Of a stretch of DNA of 39,507 bases, positions 1 through 13,316 are shown in pieces. The DNA comes from Candidatus Firestoneibacteriota bacterium (GTDB lineage: Bacteria > Oederibacteriota > D2-FULL-39-29). The stretch lies in the NCBI GenBank assembly GCA_903928075.1, contig CAIYPD010000108.1:1-39507 (forward strand), given 5' to 3'. The number at the start of each line of letters is the position of its first letter. Within the stretch, counting starts at the first letter, position 1. Both the position numbers and the translations under genes were made by a program. The notes beneath the pieces are model-generated. The model searched no databases. It was not told the DNA's origin and saw only the letters and a program-made list of their open reading frames with translations.

Positions 1-180
1 CTCACCGTAGGTGGATCCGCTTTAAGGCGAGATCTCACCGTAGGTGGATCCGCTTTAAGGCGAGATCTCACCGTAGGTGGATCCGCTTTAAGGCGAGATC
101 TCACCATAGGTGGATCCGCTTTAAGGCGAGATCTCACCATAGGTGGATCCGCTTTAAGGCGAGATCTCACCGTAGGTGGA
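1..180. repeat. 33-bp tandem repeat, 5.5 copies
   Basis: Five full copies of a 33-bp unit start at 1, 34, 67, 100 and 133, followed by a 15-bp partial copy at 166-180; the array probably continues to the left of the window. Units are identical except that copies 4 and 5 read CCATAGG where the others read CCGTAGG. Each unit contains GGATCC, and AGATCT spans each junction. ATCTCACC at the start and GGCGAGAT at the end of adjacent unit ends form a near-inverted repeat. There are no unique spacers, so it is not a CRISPR array. It lies beyond the 3' end of the shikimate kinase gene and contains no gene. Confidence 0.95.
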
Positions 181-186
181 CTGATT

Positions 187-294
187 AATGTCCATTATTT
201 TTGTTTTTCAGCAGTCTGTTACCCGCCATTTGAGGTCAAAGGGCGAGGTGACAGACTGCTCAATGTCCATTATATTGTTTTTCAGCAGTCTGTC
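187..294. repeat. Direct repeat pair with alternative hairpins at the 3' end of aroK
   Basis: A 32-33 bp sequence occurs at 187-219 and again at 262-293 with a single-base indel. Between them, 251-260 (ACAGACTGCT) is the inverse of the 3' part of both copies. It can therefore pair either with 210-219 (10 bp) or, extended to GACAGACTGCT at 250-260, with 284-294 (11 bp). The right-hand stem overlaps the TGA stop codon of aroK (295-293). Neither hairpin is followed by a T-run on the minus strand, so a simple intrinsic terminator is not supported. Confidence 0.85.
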
Positions 295-4433: not shown

Positions 4434-4488
4434 TTCAAAAATATTCAATAAGCCCGGGGCTACTCTTTTATAGTTTCCCTTGCTTATT
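4434..4488 (-). terminator. Possible terminator after the TonB operon
   Basis: On the minus strand AATAAGC (4488-4482, overlapping the stop codon of the 659-residue gene) pairs with GCTTATT (4453-4447). An inner GGG/CCC pairing is possible, and the stem is followed by ATATTTTTG at 4443-4435. The loop is long, so this is a weak candidate. The remaining stretch, 4301-4433, between this and the lexA promoter holds only short hairpin-like words such as TCAGG-N5-CCTGA; I see no gene in it. Confidence 0.35.
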
Positions 4489-6467
4489 TAAAAGATATAA
4501 TATCTTACGCCCGCGTTGAGAACCGTGATTATGTTTTTATTGCCTGTTTTTAAACCCGCTCCGGCTTCCCCGAATAATTCTATTTCATCTATTTTTACTT
4601 CCAGCCCGAGCTTGAACTCGCCAAATATGTAGGCGGTGCCCTTCACGAGACTTAAGGCGCTGCCTCCCGAAATTGAGGCATAAAGATTAAAGGCTTCATC
4701 GGGGGCATGATAATAATAGCCTCCGGCTCTTAAGCCCAGATCATTATCTCCTTCAGCCCTGGAAAAGAAAGGTCCGAAAACTGCCGCAATCTTTCTTGAG
4801 GAATCGGTCATTTTGTAATTAGCCGCCAGAAAAAGGGTGTTAATTCTAAAAGCCGGATTGAGACTCCGGGCAATAAAATCGTGCAAAGAGATTTCGAAGT
4901 TAATGCGGTCCACTTCCAGACCGCCCGAAGCCTGTTTATTTGCAGATTTTGCTTTATTATTATCTGCAGCCGCATCTTTAGCCGCCGCCTCCGGTGTACT
5001 CTTCGGATAGAAGTAATATCTGACACCGGCGCTTGCCAGAATATTTGTCGCACTACCTGAAGTATTCAGACCCGTTCCCACCTCGCCAAATATTTCTATC
5101 TCGCTTATTTTTGTTTCAATACCCAGTTTGACTTCACCGAAAGAAAAGAGCGTTCCGTTCGCAAGACTTAAGGCCCCGGCGCCTAAGGCTGAAGCATAAA
5201 CATTCAGGGTGTCATCAGGGAAAGGATAATAATAGCCGCTGGCTCTTAGACCAAGATTATTATTTCCTTCGGCCAAACAAAAGAAAGGCCCGAAAGTTGC
5301 CGCAAAATTCTTAGAGGCATCCGTCATTTTGTAATTACCGGCCAAAAGCAGGGTGTTAATTCTAAAGGCCTGGGTCGTCAGGCTCTTGGCAATAAAATCG
5401 TACAGGGAGACTTCGACATTCATACGGACCGGCTCGGCCTTAACCGGGAGGGATTTTTTTTCAGGCTTTATATTCTCATTCCCCGGGACAACTTCCTTGA
5501 AGTTAAGCTCCGAACCAACTTCCGCTCTGTTTTTTATTATAACATCTATCCGGAAATCTTCAAGACCCGTTTCATTACCGTTATACTTAATGCTGTTTTC
5601 AGTTAAGACCAGTGTGTCGGTAAAATGCTTTGCCAGCTCTTTTGCCTGCAAGCCGGCGGTAAGCGCGTCTTCACCGTAAACTTCCACTCTTACCGGAAGC
5701 GTAGACATGTCTTTCAGGTAATTTAATATTTCCAGAAGTGTGGGAGCGCCTTCTTCAAGAATCTTTGTCTTTTCCTTTTCCGGGTCAAATATTTTCTTTC
5801 TGGTCACGGAAAGATATAACCCGTCAGCCTCCTGATGCACCAGTTGATTGACGGTAAAAGGCGCACCTATGACCGTACGCGGATTGCCTTCGGAATTCAA
5901 AAGATTTAGCATATAGGAATACGGATTGCCCACCTTCATTACCGTATTGGCGCTATTTCTTCCGCTCCATTCAATTTTTTCCGGCCCGGGACCTTTGCCC
6001 GCAAACTTCTTAAAAACCTTGCCGTTATAATCTGTAATAATCAGGTCCCATTTTGAAGTTTTAAAGCCTGCTTCTTTCAAGTTAAAAATAGCAACGGGTT
6101 CTTTAATAAAATAATCCAGATAAGGCGCGGCCACCAGCCGGGTAGAAAGCATTTTCGGAAGAGTGTTTTTTAATTCCGAAAAATCCGGGGATTTTTCGAG
6201 AAACTTATTCTCCGTCTCTATGGTAGAAAGCACCGGCTCGTTAATATCCATATTTAATTCCAGAAACGGTTTCTCGCTTTTTACTTTAAACTTATCTTCG
6301 GCGGTGACCGTTACATCCTCGAGTTTTCCGGAAGCCTTCTTCTCCGGCGAGGCGGTTTCGCTTTTCCTTGCTTCCCCGGTCACCTCAGGTTTAGCCGTCT
6401 GCGTTTGAGCTAAGTTAGGAGCCATAAATACGGCCGTCAGGATGGTGACTATTATAATATTCTTCAT
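4488..6467 (-). CDS. Secreted FlgD/OmpA-like protein with duplicated outer-membrane barrel-like domain
   Basis: The 659-residue protein has a signal peptide (1-20, cut near LAQTQ). A stretch at about 120-210 has WDLIITDYNGKVF and IEWSGRNSAN like a FlgD-type Ig fold. An OmpA-like segment follows at about 240-312 (PVRVEVYGED, then QAKELAKHF). Two related domains of about 135 residues lie at 351-487 and 524-659. Each contains FRINTL, NYKMTD, FGPFF, LGLRA-GYYY, a FGE-KLG strand and a C-terminal VRYY. The final residue is Phe, as in BAM-inserted barrels. The ribosome site AAGGAG lies 7 bases before ATG. It follows tonB by 11 bp as the last gene of the operon. Anchoring in the outer membrane and peptidoglycan contact are inferred. 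Confidence 0.7.
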   Translation of the reverse strand: MKNIIIVTILTAVFMAPNLAQTQTAKPEVTGEARKSETASPEKKASGKLEDVTVTAEDKFKVKSEKPFLELNMDINEPVLSTIETENKFLEKSPDFSELKNTLPKMLSTRLVAAPYLDYFIKEPVAIFNLKEAGFKTSKWDLIITDYNGKVFKKFAGKGPGPEKIEWSGRNSANTVMKVGNPYSYMLNLLNSEGNPRTVIGAPFTVNQLVHQEADGLYLSVTRKKIFDPEKEKTKILEEGAPTLLEILNYLKDMSTLPVRVEVYGEDALTAGLQAKELAKHFTDTLVLTENSIKYNGNETGLEDFRIDVIIKNRAEVGSELNFKEVVPGNENIKPEKKSLPVKAEPVRMNVEVSLYDFIAKSLTTQAFRINTLLLAGNYKMTDASKNFAATFGPFFCLAEGNNNLGLRASGYYYPFPDDTLNVYASALGAGALSLANGTLFSFGEVKLGIETKISEIEIFGEVGTGLNTSGSATNILASAGVRYYFYPKSTPEAAAKDAAADNNKAKSANKQASGGLEVDRINFEISLHDFIARSLNPAFRINTLFLAANYKMTDSSRKIAAVFGPFFSRAEGDNDLGLRAGGYYYHAPDEAFNLYASISGGSALSLVKGTAYIFGEFKLGLEVKIDEIELFGEAGAGLKTGNKNIITVLNAGVRYYIF

Positions 6468-6478
6468 TTTACTTCTCC

Positions 6479-7726
6479 TTATGATTTCAGTTTAAATCTA
6501 AAAGTTATGACGCCCCACTGTTCCTGCTGTTTGGCCCCGTTTGAAAGCGCTTCAAACTGCCAGGTTTTCAAAACCGACATTACCAGCTTATCCAGTTCCG
6601 CATAGCCGGAGGTCCGTTCGACCGACATATCGTCCCTTACCGCGCCGTTCGGCGCCACAAACAATTTTACGGATACATCCGCGGTTATACCTTTTTCCCG
6701 CATCCACTCCAGATACTTAGGCATCGCGGAATATTTAATACCCCGGCCCTGTAAAGGTCCGACGAGTTCTACCGCCGCCTTGCTGGCTTCTGCTTTCTCC
6801 TGCACAGCCGCGCTCTCAAACTTCCTAACGGGCGCAATGCTGACTTTGTTTTCCATTCTTTTAAGCTCTTCGGGTTTCAGGCTGATACCGCCGCCCCCGT
6901 AACCGATGGCAGGTTTATCTCCGCTGCCGTTTGAGACCGGCCGCGCCTGTACTTTTTCCACCAACTTTTCCTCAAGCGCCAGATATTCCCTTACCTTCTT
7001 TCGCTCTTCATCCGTGCCTATAACTTCTTTTATCTTGCTGTCATCTTTGACCCGGGCTTTAAGATTTATTCCGAGACTTACGGATTTTGTGTTTTTTTCC
7101 GGAGCCGCCTTCTTGTCCGTTAACAGTTCCGCCGGTGTAAGTTCCCGCAGGCGCTGCTCGTCAACTTTCTTTTCCGAGGCGACGATCTCTTTAATATTTT
7201 CTGCGCGTTTCATACCGACTTCTTCAAACTTGAGGGTATCACTTTTTCTCGCCAGGGGTTCGCCTTTCTCCGTAATCCTTCTTTCCTGGTCCACCAGTTC
7301 CTTAAGTTTCTTCGTGTCCATCGACTTCATAATTTCTGCGAGCTTGTAATCCTTGTCTTTTTGCAGTTCTTTAAACTTAAGCGCATCCGTCTTCTTGAAA
7401 AGCGGGTCGCTCTTATCCACAAGTTTCTTTTCTACCTCAAGCGCCTTCTCAATATCTTTCTTTGCTATATCCAGCAGTTTCTCTTCTTTCAAAGGTTCCG
7501 GTTTTTTTAACACGGGCAAAGCCATCTTCATAAATTCCCAGATATTTTTCGGTTTTTCCTCGGTCAGGACCGGGGGTGCTTTCAAGACCATAGGCTCAAC
7601 AATTTCTATGTCGGTAATAAAAGCTTTATTTTGCTTGTTTTTAACGGAAAAATAGCCAAAAACAGACAGAAGCACAATATGTAAGCTCAAACTTATAATA
7701 AATGAAAACTTCATTCTGCTTTTCAA
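6479..7726 (-). CDS. TonB-like energy transducer
   Basis: A TonB-family protein spans the periplasm and passes ExbB/ExbD-derived force to an outer-membrane partner. This 415-residue protein has one N-terminal membrane segment (FIISLSLHIVLLSVFGYF), a long charged helical linker (about 50-320) with repeated Lys/Glu blocks and three DxLKFxE-like repeats, and a C-terminal TonB domain (about 330-415: YLEWMREKGITADVSVKLFV, LDKLVMSVLKTWQFEA). The linker is longer than in classical TonB and helical rather than Pro-rich. The frame opens at a TTG (7726) with AGG 9 bases upstream; an ATG at 7714 is an alternative. It lies 6 bp after exbD. Confidence 0.8.
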   Translation of the reverse strand: MKSRMKFSFIISLSLHIVLLSVFGYFSVKNKQNKAFITDIEIVEPMVLKAPPVLTEEKPKNIWEFMKMALPVLKKPEPLKEEKLLDIAKKDIEKALEVEKKLVDKSDPLFKKTDALKFKELQKDKDYKLAEIMKSMDTKKLKELVDQERRITEKGEPLARKSDTLKFEEVGMKRAENIKEIVASEKKVDEQRLRELTPAELLTDKKAAPEKNTKSVSLGINLKARVKDDSKIKEVIGTDEERKKVREYLALEEKLVEKVQARPVSNGSGDKPAIGYGGGGISLKPEELKRMENKVSIAPVRKFESAAVQEKAEASKAAVELVGPLQGRGIKYSAMPKYLEWMREKGITADVSVKLFVAPNGAVRDDMSVERTSGYAELDKLVMSVLKTWQFEALSNGAKQQEQWGVITFRFKLKS

Positions 7727-7732
7727 AACATT

Positions 7733-8134
7733 TTACCTTTTTTGCTCGGTTGCCAGAGCATATTTTGCTCCGACTTTCTTTGCCATAGACATTGCCTCTT
7801 CAGCAGAGCCCCAGGCGGCTGCTTTATCCGCCCTAATCACTATATATTTATCTTTGCTTTTTTTCATCAATTTTAGAAGACGCTCGGCAACTTTTTCTTT
7901 GCCTATAATGTCCTGGTTTATAGCCCATTCCCCTTTGTCGCTTATGGAAATGGTTATGTTTTCTTTGTTTTCGCCTTCCTTGGTGGAAGCTTTGGGTAAA
8001 ACCACGGCCATATTAGGCTGCACCATCATCGGCGCAGTGACCATAAAAATAATGACCAGCACCAGACAGACATCCACAAGCGGGGTCACATTTATACTGT
8101 TTATTTCTTCTTCACTATCGCTCTGCATTGCCAT
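7733..8134 (-). CDS. ExbD/TolR-family biopolymer transport protein (second copy)
   Basis: A 133-residue single-span inner-membrane protein of the ExbD/TolR family, which forms the proton-driven motor with ExbB. The N terminus is short and cytoplasmic. The helix NVTPLVDVCLVLVIIFMVTA carries the conserved Asp needed for proton passage (D21). The periplasmic part contains the usual ISISDKGEWAIN and DKYIVIRADKAA strands. It lies 3 bp after the other exbD copy and is clearly related to it but much diverged in the periplasmic part, suggesting distinct partners. Two ExbD/TolR subunits with one ExbB also occur in TolQ/R-like gliding motors. Confidence 0.92.
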   Translation of the reverse strand: MAMQSDSEEEINSINVTPLVDVCLVLVIIFMVTAPMMVQPNMAVVLPKASTKEGENKENITISISDKGEWAINQDIIGKEKVAERLLKLMKKSKDKYIVIRADKAAAWGSAEEAMSMAKKVGAKYALATEQKR

Positions 8135-8137
8135 AAA

Positions 8138-8551
8138 TTACTCCTGTATTTTCTTCAGCACGGAAAGTTTAAGCGCGCCCGCCTGCTTGGAGGCATCCAT
8201 TACTTCCACGACCTGCTCGACCAGGTTCTTTTTATCCGCCGTGATAGTCACCAGTTTGTCCTTGCTTTTCGAAATACTCACAGTGAGCTCGCGCATCAGC
8301 TCTGTTCTTTGTACTTCGCGCCCGTTCAACATTAAACGGTTATCCGCCGTAAGAATAATATTTACATTTTCTTCCGCAGACTTTTTCCCGACGGAGGCCC
8401 CGGCCGCCGATTGAGTCAGATTTATGCCGGCTTGCATTATAAAATTAGCGGTCACCATGAAAATAATAACCAGCACCAGGCAAACATCCACGAGGGGCGT
8501 TACATTTATGTCTGTTATCGGAGAATCGTTTTCTTCGACCTTAACCGCCAT
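8138..8551 (-). CDS. ExbD/TolR-family biopolymer transport protein (first copy)
   Basis: A 137-residue single-span protein with the helix NVTPLVDVCLVLVIIFMVTA, including the motor Asp (D22), preceded by a short acidic cytoplasmic segment. The periplasmic domain carries VNIILTADNRLMLNGREV and DKLVTITADKKN, typical of ExbD/TolR. It follows exbB by 11 bp and precedes the second exbD by 3 bp. The membrane helices of the two ExbD proteins are almost identical in sequence, whereas the periplasmic domains differ, which fits a heterodimeric stator plug. Confidence 0.93.
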   Translation of the reverse strand: MAVKVEENDSPITDINVTPLVDVCLVLVIIFMVTANFIMQAGINLTQSAAGASVGKKSAEENVNIILTADNRLMLNGREVQRTELMRELTVSISKSKDKLVTITADKKNLVEQVVEVMDASKQAGALKLSVLKKIQE

Positions 8552-8562
8552 TTTTTCTCCTT

Positions 8563-9171
8563 CTACTTGTTCAGGTAAACCAGCAAGCGCTTCATGGCTA
8601 CATCAATTTCGACATTCATAACTTTTATTTTGCGCTGGAAAAAATTGAAAGCCACAACACAGGGAATGGCCACCACCAGACCCCCGGCGGTAGCAACCAG
8701 AGCTTCGGCTATACCGGCAGCAACTATAGCCGGACCGCCTGAACCCGATTTTGCCAGATCCTCAAAAGCTTTAATAATCCCGACTACCGTACCAAAAAGA
8801 CCTATAAACGGAGACGCATTTCCCAGCGTACCCAAAATACCGAGCCAGCCGTCCATTTTTATCCTTTCTTCCATCTTGGCGGATTCCATTAGCTCGCTAA
8901 TATCTTCTTTATTTTTCTTTCTGTTTATTATTCCGATCTTTATGACATGAGAAAGCGGGGCCGGGTGTTTGGTACAGTGCGTCAGGGCGTCTTCAAAACA
9001 GGATTTCTCAAGAAAGGTCTCTATTTTTTTCATAAAGACTCCGGCATCAAGACGGCATTTTCTCAGGTACAGCCACTTCTCAATCGAAGCTGCAAGCGCG
9101 AGCACGGAACAAAGAAGCAGTATCACCAGCGTAAAACTTGACTTGAATACTTCCAGAATACTGATATTCAT
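8563..9171 (-). CDS. exbB: ExbB/TolQ/MotA-family proton channel
   Basis: An inner-membrane proton channel subunit with three helices: about residues 9-33, 108-130 and 150-180. Family landmarks are GWLGILGTLGNASPFIGLFGTV and IAEALVATAGGLVVAIP, which surround the pore. A cytoplasmic loop lies between helix 1 and helix 2. The frame can be read from a TTG at 9174, but GGAGG lies 5 bases before the ATG at 9171, which I choose (202 residues). It comes 63 bp after the TPR gene, with a hairpin in the gap, and heads the ExbB-ExbD-ExbD-TonB-barrel run. It could equally be named TolQ; the family does not separate these by motif alone. Confidence 0.93.
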   Translation of the reverse strand: MNISILEVFKSSFTLVILLLCSVLALAASIEKWLYLRKCRLDAGVFMKKIETFLEKSCFEDALTHCTKHPAPLSHVIKIGIINRKKNKEDISELMESAKMEERIKMDGWLGILGTLGNASPFIGLFGTVVGIIKAFEDLAKSGSGGPAIVAAGIAEALVATAGGLVVAIPCVVAFNFFQRKIKVMNVEIDVAMKRLLVYLNK

Positions 9172-9192
9172 CAATCCCTCCGATAAAGTTTT

Positions 9193-9216
9193 ATAAAACG
9201 CAGGTTTCTGCCTGCG
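9193..9216 (-). terminator. Short hairpin with T-run between the TPR gene and exbB
   Basis: On the minus strand CGCAGG and CCTGCG (9216-9211 and 9204-9199) form a perfect 6-bp stem with a 6-nt loop, followed directly by TTTTAT (9198-9193). It precedes the exbB ribosome site by about 15 bases. The short stem suggests partial termination or mRNA end protection, which would set the level of exbB and later genes below that of the TPR gene. Confidence 0.4.
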
Positions 9217-9237
9217 CCCGGTATCTTTTTCTGACGG

Positions 9238-12200
9238 CTATTTAGAAGTCTTCTGCTTTTCTTTTATCTGTAATTTTATGGACTCAACCCGCAGTTTAGC
9301 GGCATTTGACCACTCGTCTTTGCCGGCGTTTTGAATAATATCACTATAGACCTTTATGGCTTCTTCGAACTTGCCTCCGGCTTCACAAAACTCCGCAAGC
9401 TTGGCCAGGCCGGTAAGACGGGAAGCATTGGCTTTTGGCTGCATTTCCAGGAGTTTCCGGAGTTCTTTTTCTGCCTCTTCATTCTTTTCCTGTTTCAGCA
9501 GGCCGTCTGCTATTTGAAACTGAACATCGAGACTCGCGTCATCGCCGGCCTTCATAGGATATTTTTTGTAGGTTTCCACTGCCAGTTCATAATTTTGCCG
9601 CTTCTGGAAAATACTTGCCGCTTCCAGGAGGGCAGGAAGCGAATTCTGGTCCGCCGGATACTTCGTATTGAAATCAATGTAAGTCCGGGCCGCCTCCTCC
9701 AGCAAATTCGCCTTTTTATAAGCCAGCGCCATATTAAACATCGCCGCAGAAGCGAACTCCGAGGCCGGGAAACCTTTCAGTATTTCCTTGTAGGATTCCA
9801 CCGCTTCCGGAAATTTTTTCAAATTATAATTTGAAGTGGCCGAGTGAAAGAGCGCGTCAATAATAAATTCTTCACCGGGAAAATTCTTTATATACCTGCC
9901 GTAAGCCCCCAGAGCTTCTTCATAGTTCTGCAGTTTATAGTAGGATTCCGCAAGATAAAAATGCGCCGCGCCGGCGGAAGCAGTTTCCGAATAATCCGTG
10001 ATCAATTTGACCAAGTCCTTTGCCGCATTGGCGTACTGTTTTTCGTCGTAGTACTTTTTCCCTATTTTAAACTGCACTTCACCGGCGAACTTGGAAACCG
10101 GATATTTAACGAGCACGGCTCTTAAAATATCTATATATTCGGCGACCGTATTATCCTGGGGCGCGGGGAGGGGGTTCTTTTTTTCCGCGGTCGCGACAGG
10201 GGCTGTTTGCGCAGCTTCTCTTTTTTTCTTTACCGCAGCTTCAAGGGCCTCAACGGCCTCCGCCACCTGCGAATCATCCTGGCAGGTTTCCAGATATTTT
10301 TTATATTCTTTTATTGCCAGGTCGTAATCTTTCGCATTGTAATAACTTTGTCCCACCCTAAGCTGGGCTTCTTTCACCCATTTTGTTTCGGGATAGTCGG
10401 CCGTCAATTTTCTAAAGGCGGCTACCGCCTCAATATATTTCTGGGCCCGGAAATAGGTGTCGGCTACCTGAAAAAGGGCTTCCGGCGCTTTCTTGTCGGT
10501 TTTATACTTCTCGACGAGCATTTCCCAGGACTTGATTGCTGAACTGTAATATTCCAGCCGGTAGTAGCAGAGCCCGCTCCGGTATATTACCTCCGGGGTT
10601 AGGGAACTCTCAGGATTTTCTTTGGCGTACTTCTCGTAAATATCCAGTGCTTCCAGATACTTTTTCTGATTAAACAGATTATTGGCAATTTGAAACTGCG
10701 ATTGCAGAACCATCTTATCTTTAGAATCTTTTGTTTCGTCTGCGCTAATGGTCTCAAGGATTTTCTTTATTTCTTTCTCGGCTACCTCATATTTCCCTGT
10801 GGCACCGGCGACATAAGAAATACCCGACAGGGCTTGCATCGCTTCGGCGGTATTCTTAAAATCCCGTCTAACCAGCTCAAAAGCCATTTGAGCTTCTTTA
10901 TAAAGTCCTGTCCTGAAATAAGCATCCGCCCCGTAAAGCAGAGTACGGGCCCGCCAGACATTATCAGAAGGTTTGAGGTTGTTTACTATATACTGGTAGT
11001 TGGTGACTATCTGGTCAAATTTATGCTGTTCATATTCACTGTTATTTAAAAGACAAAGCGAGGCCTCGTAAAGATTTGTAGACGGCAGTTTATCCAGCAC
11101 CAGCCCGTAATAGGAGGAAGCCTCTGCATATTTCTTTTGCTTATAATAGTTATTGGCCATCATATAAAATACATAAGGAAGGAGTTCATGCCGGCCAAAA
11201 TCTTTGTCAAATTGGAGATATGCGCCCGAAGCCATAGAATAGGCCCCTTCCTTGTAAAAACACCAGCCAATCTTGTACTGTGCAGAAGGCGCCACTTCAT
11301 TAGTACCGAACAAGCTCACAACACTGCCGTATTTTACTTTTGCTTCGCTTATCTTATTTTGTTTTCTTAAAGCTTCAGCCATCAGGTAGGCAGAAAGCGG
11401 AGCTACTTCATTCTCGGGGGAGGTTTTTCCCACCTCGTCAAATATCTTGATAGCCTCATCATAATTTTTCTGAAAGAAATAGGAACAGCCTATTTTATAA
11501 GAAGCGTACGGTTTATAAGGGCTCTTAGGGAATTGTTCAAGATGCTTTTTGTAAGCGTAGATCGCCGAAGCATAATCTTTTGAGTAATAGAAAGATTCAG
11601 GTATGGAAAAAGAAGCCTTCTCCGCATACTCGCTCCCGGGAAATTCAAGAAGTAGTTTCTTATAATTTACTATGGCAGAAAAACCTTTGCCCTGCTTGTC
11701 CAGACACTGCCCGGCAAAAAAATAACCGTCCGCTGTCTTTACTTCCTTAAGCTTTTCCAGAGCTCCCTGAAAATCTTTTTTGTAATAGGCCACAATCCCG
11801 AGCCCAAACTGAACTTTGAGGCTCTTATTATAAGCAGGATACATCGCTCCGAGTTGCACCAGGACATTACCTGCCTCAACCCACTTTCCCCGCGCCATAT
11901 GGCAGAGGGCCGTGCTGTAAATCGCTTCACTCTTAAAATATGAATCCGCATAATTGCCGGTCAGTTCCTTGAAGGCCTCTATAGCCTTTTCATAACTGCC
12001 TTTATTGTAGTAGCACTCCCCGATCCGGAAGAGCGCATCATCGCTTACTTCATTTGAAGGATAGCCGGCAATTTTTCTATACTCTTCTATCGCATTATCA
12101 AAAGTCGGCACAAAAGGAATTTCTCCGCTGAGTACCGCGGCTTTATCCTCGTCTTCCGTTGTTAATTTTAGGTCCGTAATTATTTTCTGGGAGAAGGTCC

Positions 12201-12483
12201 TGGCTGATTCAAAAAAGAGAGCTTCACCGAGCATGAACTGCGCCTGGGGCGCTTTGTCTGAACGGGGGAAGCGTTTTATAAACTTTCTATACTCGTAAAA
12301 GGCATTTTTTTTATTATCCTCCACAGAGTAAAGCTTCGAGGCGAGCGCATATTGGACTTTTTCGGTAAGTTCTGATTTCTCGGGAATATCGGATATTTTA
12401 TCAGAGGCAAAAGCAAACCCCGGTGAAACAAAAAAGAAAGCAATCACAGCAAATATTATCGTGCTTTTTATACTTTCTGTCAT
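9238..12483 (-). CDS. Giant periplasmic TPR protein
   Basis: A 1081-residue protein with a signal peptide (1-26, ending FAFAS) followed by tetratricopeptide-type helical repeats along nearly the whole length. Typical units read ALFRIGECYYNKGSYEKAI, with FKEL and a PxS turn at about 35-40 residue spacing. A Lys/Ala/Pro-rich break occurs near residues 755-780. The repeat style resembles BamD/YbgF (CpoB) type periplasmic scaffolds rather than cytoplasmic TPRs. The ATG is preceded by AGGA, and a strong promoter lies 42-70 bp upstream, so this is the first gene of the ExbB/ExbD/TonB operon. Its likely role is a periplasmic scaffold joining the motor to outer-membrane partners (inference). Confidence 0.85.
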   Translation of the reverse strand: MTESIKSTIIFAVIAFFFVSPGFAFASDKISDIPEKSELTEKVQYALASKLYSVEDNKKNAFYEYRKFIKRFPRSDKAPQAQFMLGEALFFESARTFSQKIITDLKLTTEDEDKAAVLSGEIPFVPTFDNAIEEYRKIAGYPSNEVSDDALFRIGECYYNKGSYEKAIEAFKELTGNYADSYFKSEAIYSTALCHMARGKWVEAGNVLVQLGAMYPAYNKSLKVQFGLGIVAYYKKDFQGALEKLKEVKTADGYFFAGQCLDKQGKGFSAIVNYKKLLLEFPGSEYAEKASFSIPESFYYSKDYASAIYAYKKHLEQFPKSPYKPYASYKIGCSYFFQKNYDEAIKIFDEVGKTSPENEVAPLSAYLMAEALRKQNKISEAKVKYGSVVSLFGTNEVAPSAQYKIGWCFYKEGAYSMASGAYLQFDKDFGRHELLPYVFYMMANNYYKQKKYAEASSYYGLVLDKLPSTNLYEASLCLLNNSEYEQHKFDQIVTNYQYIVNNLKPSDNVWRARTLLYGADAYFRTGLYKEAQMAFELVRRDFKNTAEAMQALSGISYVAGATGKYEVAEKEIKKILETISADETKDSKDKMVLQSQFQIANNLFNQKKYLEALDIYEKYAKENPESSLTPEVIYRSGLCYYRLEYYSSAIKSWEMLVEKYKTDKKAPEALFQVADTYFRAQKYIEAVAAFRKLTADYPETKWVKEAQLRVGQSYYNAKDYDLAIKEYKKYLETCQDDSQVAEAVEALEAAVKKKREAAQTAPVATAEKKNPLPAPQDNTVAEYIDILRAVLVKYPVSKFAGEVQFKIGKKYYDEKQYANAAKDLVKLITDYSETASAGAAHFYLAESYYKLQNYEEALGAYGRYIKNFPGEEFIIDALFHSATSNYNLKKFPEAVESYKEILKGFPASEFASAAMFNMALAYKKANLLEEAARTYIDFNTKYPADQNSLPALLEAASIFQKRQNYELAVETYKKYPMKAGDDASLDVQFQIADGLLKQEKNEEAEKELRKLLEMQPKANASRLTGLAKLAEFCEAGGKFEEAIKVYSDIIQNAGKDEWSNAAKLRVESIKLQIKEKQKTSK

Positions 12484-12524
12484 TTATCGTCCTGTCCTCT
12501 TAAATTTTGATTTTTATGACATAT

Positions 12525-12553
12525 ATTATACCACATAACCCTTTTTAATACAA
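12525..12553 (-). promoter_or_regulatory. Promoter of the TPR-ExbB-ExbD-ExbD-TonB operon
   Basis: On the minus strand TTGTAT (12553-12548) and TATAAT (12530-12525) are separated by 17 bp, a near-consensus sigma-70 promoter. Transcription would start near 12518, leaving a leader of about 35 nt before the TPR start codon. The rest of the gap from here to the next gene upstream (12554-12776) shows no gene or clear signal. Confidence 0.8.
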
Positions 12554-12776
12554 AGCATAACTCCGTAATACCGGGGTAAAGCAGAAAGAGAAGCAGGAAC
12601 TTCGCGAAAAAAGAAAAAAAAGGAGGCGATAGTTTAAAGAAAAGAAGGGCATCCGTCTCTTTCTGTAATTTCATTCAGGTATCAGATAAATGCAGGACCG
12701 GCCGGCGCCTTAAAAATATATCTATAGCGCTTGTTTAAACCGGAGTGATTATTCCAATGCTCTTTCCACCGCTTCT

Positions 12777-13316
12777 TTAAAAGATATAATACCTGGCCCC
12801 GGCGTTTAGCATCAAATTTATATTATTTGCCCGTGTGCTCAAACCTGTCCCAACTTCGCCAAATACCTCTATTTCATTTATTGTTGTTTCCACCCCGAGC
12901 TTTAATTCAATAAATAGATTTGCCTTTCCGTTCGCCGCAAGGCTTAAGGCCCCGCCTCCCGTAGTTGCAGCGTAAACTCTAATTGCTTGATCCGGTGCAA
13001 AGTAATAATAGCCGGAGGCTCTTAAACCAAGATCATAGTTTCCATCAGACAACCAGAAGAAAGGCCCAAAATCTGCCGCAAATTTCCTCGAGGAATCAGT
13101 CATTTTATAGTTAGCCGCAAACATAAAGGTGTTAATTCTAAAGACCGGAATGAGATTCTTGGAAAAGAAATCATGCAAGGAAAGTTCGTAACTTGTAGAA
13201 TCGCACTGTGCCCGCCCTGAAGACCCTTTTGTTACACCTTTTTCCGTCTGCACTTGAGCAAAGCCGGAAACGGTGAAGACAACGGTCAGCACGACAACTG
13301 CAAATGTTTTCTTCAT
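12777..13316 (-). CDS. Small outer-membrane barrel-like protein, paralogue of the 659-residue protein's repeats
   Basis: A 179-residue secreted protein: signal peptide 1-20 (cut GFA-Q), short linker, then one copy (about 42-179) of the same domain found twice in the protein at 4488-6467. Shared landmarks are LSLHDF, FRINTF, ANYKMTDSSRKFAA, FGPFF, LGLRASGYYY, ALSLA, ELKLGVET and the terminal NAGARYYIF. The final Phe and alternating aromatic residues fit the C-terminal signal of outer-membrane beta-barrels. AGGAGG lies 7 bases before the ATG. It has its own promoter and lies just upstream of the TPR operon, facing the same way. Function unknown. Confidence 0.75.
   Translation of the reverse strand: MKKTFAVVVLTVVFTVSGFAQVQTEKGVTKGSSGRAQCDSTSYELSLHDFFSKNLIPVFRINTFMFAANYKMTDSSRKFAADFGPFFWLSDGNYDLGLRASGYYYFAPDQAIRVYAATTGGGALSLAANGKANLFIELKLGVETTINEIEVFGEVGTGLSTRANNINLMLNAGARYYIF

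Follow-up and report, generated by a model that had tools for sequence, protein, structure and literature searches.

The window (the whole stretch of DNA analyzed, 39,507 nucleotides) carries on its minus strand, from position 12483 to position 4488, six genes that encode a TPR protein, an ExbB, two ExbDs, a TonB-type protein, and an FlgD/OmpA-like protein (Table 1). The gaps between them, from the TPR gene through the gene for the 659-residue protein, are 63, 11, 3, 6, and 11 bp, and the gene for a 179-residue paralogue of the C-terminal repeats of the last protein lies 293 bp upstream of the TPR gene. The original prediction had described this operon and the upstream paralogue, and every open reading frame was found at the predicted position. 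Pfam and NCBIfam both confirm ExbB, the two ExbDs (95 and 86 bits with the Pfam model), TonB_C, and TPR. A trans-envelope motor driven by the proton motive force, in which one subunit is TolQ-like and two are TolR-like, is supported. The TPR protein is closest to the curated models of YbgF/CpoB- and BamD-type TPR proteins; its orthologues in three members of the family are 65 to 67% identical, and a plasmid search with it gave generic TPR matches only. Downstream of the operon, open reading frames read by eye correspond to lexA and recA. The start of the contig (window positions 1 to 200) is a tandem repeat that translates into LTVGGSALRRD units.

Table 1. Features of the operon and the upstream paralogue in the window
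Feature	Position	Strand	Remarks
TPR protein, 1081 aa	9238..12483	-	N-terminal signal peptide, no lipobox
ExbB/TolQ proton-channel subunit, 203 aa	8563..9174	-	Pfam MotA_ExbB, 110 bits
ExbD1, 137 aa, proton-relay Asp22 (PLVDV)	8138..8551	-	Pfam ExbD
ExbD2, 133 aa, Asp21 (PLVDV)	7733..8134	-	Pfam ExbD
TonB-type force transducer, 415 aa	6479..7726	-	Pfam/NCBIfam TonB_C above cut-off; Pfam TonB_C, 34.5 bits
FlgD_ig + OmpA-like protein, 659 aa, two C-terminal barrel-like repeats	4488..6467	-	
TonB-box-like motif EDVTVTA, residues 50-56 of the 659 aa protein	6300..6320	-	
FlgD Ig-like domain, residues 126-213 of the 659 aa protein	5829..6092	-	AlphaFold + Foldseek
OmpA-fold domain, residues 216-312 of the 659 aa protein	5532..5822	-	Foldseek, alignment
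Two barrel-like repeats, residues 344-487 and 506-659 of the 659 aa protein	4491..5438	-	Homologous to the 179 aa gene
Single barrel-like paralogue, 179 aa	12777..13316	-	Occupies the position of the relatives' PorV-family barrel gene

The subunits of the putative motor have features of their own. In a tree of ExbB proteins, those of the operon form a group (support, 93/93) apart from the other two ExbBs of the genome; the group takes in Elusimicrobiota and two second-copy operons, and the order of the outgroups, which sit on long branches, is unsure. The proton-relay aspartate is kept in all 73 homologues of ExbD1 and in 65 of the 70 homologues of ExbD2, the other five having alanine, and all five are encoded on contigs with a distinctive ExbD1 (SLVDV). 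This asymmetric loss of the aspartate suggests that ExbD1 and ExbD2 cannot stand in for each other, which would fit a heterodimer. On the five contigs (L090, L091, L093, L099, and L133), ExbD2 reads PLVA in place of PLVD and ExbD1 retains SLVD. The TonB protein consists of an N-terminal transmembrane (TM) helix with S12-x3-H16, a long helical linker, and TonB_C at residues 336 to 413; the S-x3-H of the helix is present in 56 of 67 homologues.

The last protein of the operon, of 659 residues, has no Pfam match. In an AlphaFold model, its residues 121 to 320 have block pLDDT values mostly of 83 to 95, and the predicted FlgD/OmpA-like identity is upheld because Foldseek places the model on OmpA-like domains (PDB 3oon and 6u83; best E-value, 1.9e-5) and on FlgD (3c12; 7e-4). 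In an alignment inspected by eye, the peptidoglycan-binding Arg position of the OmpA-fold domain is not conserved. The C-terminal repeats were modeled with low confidence and no resolved fold; hence, we infer from their sequence that they are barrels. In relatives only residues about 22 to 305 are conserved, and the orthologues, of about 300 residues, end after the OmpA-like domain.

In the FlgD/OmpA proteins, a TonB-box-like motif comes soon after the signal peptide, from which a short linker separates it. Its pattern is [D/E]-V-[V/T/I]-[V/I]-x-[G/A/S], and it reads EVVIKG, EVVVKG, or EVTIKG in relatives and DVTVTA in the window; for comparison, a TonB-dependent receptor of the same genome (contig C107) has LDEVVVTGSR. 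The motif occurs in 50 of 61 FlgD/OmpA orthologues versus 3 of 380 unrelated open reading frames, a contrast that is descriptive because the pattern was written after these sequences had been viewed, TonB boxes being short and degenerate. The motif, its position, and the adjacency of the gene to that of TonB all agree. Given its FlgD Ig-like and OmpA-fold domains and its TonB-box-like motif, the 659-residue protein looks like the dedicated client of the operon's TonB protein. The TonB-type motor would then probably pull on a periplasmic partner of its own and not on a nutrient receptor.

How widely is this arrangement kept? An earlier contig scan with a single ExbB sequence as the query gave no matches; a profile scan of named genomes with an ExbB alignment as the query recovered 80 loci, mostly from Elusimicrobiota, the related contigs belonging to this phylum and to the Firestonebacteria/Goldiibacteriota/FCPU426 group. 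At loci with enough contig, the TPR gene lies upstream of exbB in 56 of 60 cases, two exbD genes follow exbB in 69 of 71, tonB follows these in 63 of 63, and the FlgD/OmpA gene is last in 52 of 52, counts that describe conservation within one family and no unbiased survey, the loci having been selected by ExbB similarity. Because the gene order recurs in related contigs wherever their length allows, it is not due to chance; relatives do keep the genes together. The operon is kept together across two little-known phyla, and most families of the window's phylum have ExbB orthologues. In a genome of the same genus, ExbD1 and ExbD2 are encoded at a contig end, a few kb past the same recA-side genes. 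Three members of the window's family have the operon divided between two loci, and one genome (G003) retains the series of giant protein, PorV, ExbD1, ExbD2, TonB, and client, with no orthologous ExbB or TPR protein found in it. Broken operons in the window's own family are seen at L036, L037, L064, L065, and L066. The window's genome also has a second TPR and ExbB-ExbD-TonB locus (L005:2-11500; G000 contig C102) with a TPR-SpoIID protein encoded downstream, and another genome has a diverged cluster of TPR, ExbB, and two ExbDs adjoining a HEAT/cyclase-like repeat protein (L067:7642-12137; G002 contig C45).

The six-gene operon is real and conserved and encodes a Ton-type motor together with a client of its own; the literature searched held no description of it, and as far as that search shows it is undescribed. 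A 2025 paper (PMC12204202) reports PVC-group clusters, their function unknown, that combine TPR, tolQ, and two tolR-like genes with a vWA transducer. They share with the operon the TPR gene, the tolQ-like gene, and a heterologous tolR-like pair adjoining the transducer; however, the transducer described here ends in TonB_C instead of vWA, and a TonB-box-bearing client is present.

At all 19 loci of the window's phylum with the TPR gene in hand, the gene directly upstream of it encodes a PorV-family barrel that ends in an FlgD_ig domain. This barrel gene is in turn usually preceded, contig permitting, by a gene for a giant protein of ~1800 residues with Ig-like repeats, and most of these giant proteins have a sorting-type YPNPF motif near their FlgD_ig tail. 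A relative's barrel scored 137 bits with the NCBIfam model PorV_fam (cut-off, 90), and the top PDB match of the PorV-like barrel model is PorV of the SprA complex (6h3i; E-value, 1e-10). The adhesins beside the operon have sorting-domain scores of 13.8 to 22.7, just under the cut-off of 23. The window's genome is an exception in that the adjacent PorV and giant genes are absent; the 179-residue barrel-like protein is encoded in the PorV position and the FlgD/OmpA protein contains two such repeats, and together these may replace the PorV-family barrel.

On many Elusimicrobiota contigs the operon comes after an apparent thrS and has no neighboring PorV gene. In some Elusimicrobiota, a protein that comprises eight FlgD_ig domains plus an intact OmpA domain is encoded between TPR and ExbB. 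Matches to PorV of about 1050 residues at this position were rejected, these proteins being made of eight FlgD_ig domains and OmpA with no barrel. Examples with about eight tandem FlgD_ig domains and a C-terminal OmpA domain are L088:6858-10004 and L133:6917-9964, where response-regulator-like genes come after the operon. In another genome (G013 contig C1:223316-223510), an FlgD_ig domain lies inside an open frame of 24,245 residues, an exceptionally large predicted surface protein.

A SprA/Sov homologue scored 209.7 bits (cut-off, 200) in the window's genome, on contig C53, and SprA/Sov homologues occur in 52 of 58 genomes from the window's phylum and Elusimicrobiota. The gene is located at G000 contig C53:11790-16652 (L185:937-6366). 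The genome also contains PorV homologues and, on contig C68, a PorV-adjacent protein whose type A sorting domain scored 32.7 bits with the Por_Secre_tail model (cut-off, 23). The region concerned (G000 contig C68; L174:622-10622) encodes proteins of 2261 and 726 residues with BamB-like propeller matches, the 726-residue protein bearing the sorting domain and a PorV-family barrel gene adjoining. With a PorV-family barrel, a sorting-tailed adhesin, and SprA, the link of the operon to type IX secretion and gliding of the Bacteroidota kind is stronger than that to Glt/Agl. The likeness to the T9SS and SprB gliding of Bacteroidota comprises SprA/Sov, the PorV barrel, type A sorting-like C termini, and a giant adhesin encoded next to a barrel gene. 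By contrast, GldM was found in none of 31 genomes and GldL gave sub-threshold noise only in the same 31, searches in which diverged versions of either could be missed. A canonical T9SS motor was rejected, GldL and GldM being undetected in these 31 genomes, and the candidate motor here is of the ExbBD/TonB type. A further difference is that T9SS genes are reported to be absent outside the Fibrobacterota-Chlorobi-Bacteroidota group and its neighbors (PMC11285876), groups that do not include this lineage.

How, then, does the operon relate to SprA? Four genomes (G005-G008) have SprA and no ExbD pair; SprA itself can therefore do without the operon, and the idea that it is an obligatory SprA motor is weakened. 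Tentatively, Firestonebacteria/Goldiibacteriota and Elusimicrobiota may possess, outside the groups known for it, a type IX-like secretion or surface-adhesin system (SprA, PorV, and sorting domains) run by ExbB, ExbD1, ExbD2, and TonB in place of GldL and GldM, in which TonB would pull the TonB-box-bearing FlgD/OmpA protein. The broader reading, that a Ton-type motor acts on a type IX-like surface-adhesin system, we consider somewhat probable, and we favor secretion or anchoring of the adhesin over gliding.

Gliding motors of this general type have precedents in AglRQS-Glt of Myxococcus and in GldLM, which moves SprB in Flavobacterium. A motor driven by the proton motive force could here move the giant adhesin along the cell surface, the adhesin-barrel pair playing the part of SprB/SprF. 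The original prediction had likened the operon to the Agl/Glt machinery, and what stood is the set of one TolQ-like and two TolR-like subunits with their genes together; specific homology is not supported, the curated models giving 13.3 bits for GltG (cut-off, 650) and 17.2 bits for GltC (cut-off, 450). The TPR protein did not match the GltD and GltE models, and the TonB protein has no FHA domain, a feature of GltG, its TM helix being at the extreme N terminus. Membership in Glt/Agl is thus rejected on curated models and domain layout. Compared with AglRQS-Glt of Myxococcus xanthus, the operon shares the subunit set (one TolQ-like, two TolR-like), a transducer with a TonB domain, a TPR protein with a signal peptide, and outer-membrane barrels, but it is without an FHA-TonB GltG and a GltC equivalogue and has an FlgD_ig/OmpA client instead. 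Gliding draws some support from the match of one TolQ-like, two TolR-like, TonB, and TPR proteins to the Myxococcus core set of AglRQS, GltG, and TPR proteins (PMC3169522) and from the adhesin and barrel encoded beside the motor in relatives. Yet specific Glt homology is missing, GldL and GldM were undetected in the 31 genomes, and the window's contig, like many loci of Elusimicrobiota, has no adhesin next to the operon; a gliding motor is rather unlikely.

A Tol-Pal-like role, in which a CpoB-type TPR protein, TolQ, two TolRs, a TolA/TonB protein, and an OmpA-fold partner would tether the outer membrane to the wall and aid constriction at division, is unlikely. It is kept alive by the protein that one Elusimicrobiota group adds between TPR and ExbB, with its eight FlgD_ig domains and intact OmpA domain, and it would fit the resemblance of the TPR protein to YbgF/CpoB, the OmpA fold of the client, and FtsE/FtsX-like genes seen (by eye only) a few genes downstream in some relatives. 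The likeness to Tol-Pal extends to a CpoB-like TPR protein, a TolQ/TolR-type motor, and an OmpA-fold partner. However, the operon has two TolR-type subunits, there is no TolB and no Pal lipoprotein among the cluster proteins, the transducer domain is TonB_C, the client bears a TonB-box-like motif, and the steady neighbors in the window's phylum are PorV and the sorting-tailed adhesin. The OmpA domain of the cluster is a degenerate fold only or, in a subset of Elusimicrobiota, intact. The claim that no TonB-dependent receptor, TolB, or Pal lies nearby holds for the receptor, TolB, and intact Pal.

Ton motors often work in trans, and the operon resembles a Ton system in its ExbB and ExbD families, a TonB_C transducer with an S-x3-H helix, and a TonB-box-like motif in the partner. 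It differs in having two distinct ExbDs, a dedicated TPR protein, and, instead of a 22-strand receptor with a plug, an FlgD_ig/OmpA-fold periplasmic partner; ExbB, ExbD, and TonB_C are all present, and no Plug-domain receptor linked to the motor was found near the operon. Nutrient uptake through receptors encoded elsewhere is very unlikely: the genome has two TonB-dependent receptors on another contig, but their neighborhood has its own TonB-like gene, two other ExbB-ExbD sets are present in the genome, the 1,024 open reading frames of the 80 operon loci contain no receptor homologue (so that a receptor always beside the operon, the case that would have refuted the original prediction, does not occur), and uptake requires neither a 1081-residue TPR protein nor an FlgD/OmpA client; a nutrient-receptor Ton system with an adjacent receptor is rejected.

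We return to the Ton-type motor that acts on a type IX-like surface-adhesin system. We hypothesize that an ExbB pentamer surrounds an ExbD1/ExbD2 heterodimer in a Ton-type 5:2 proton motor, with the long TPR protein as a periplasmic scaffold. The operon's TonB would serve no nutrient receptor; most likely, its C-terminal domain grips the TonB-box-like strand at the N terminus of the FlgD/OmpA-like protein and pulls. Contact with the outer membrane would be made in the window by the two barrel-like domains fused to the FlgD/OmpA protein and in relatives by the separate PorV-family barrel with its FlgD_ig tail. The force would act on the type IX-like surface system, with the adjacent giant Ig adhesin as the probable cargo in most relatives within the phylum, and its purpose could be to export, seat, or move this adhesin.

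The known tasks of Ton and Tol motors are uptake and maintenance of the outer membrane. If our reading is correct, a conserved Ton-type motor with a non-receptor client, encoded beside adhesins in SprA-containing genomes without detected GldLM, would mean that the force of TonB is also used to export proteins or for surface movement. Type IX-like machinery would then extend well past its recorded range (PMC11285876), and cultivable Elusimicrobiota would gain a concrete gene set to test.
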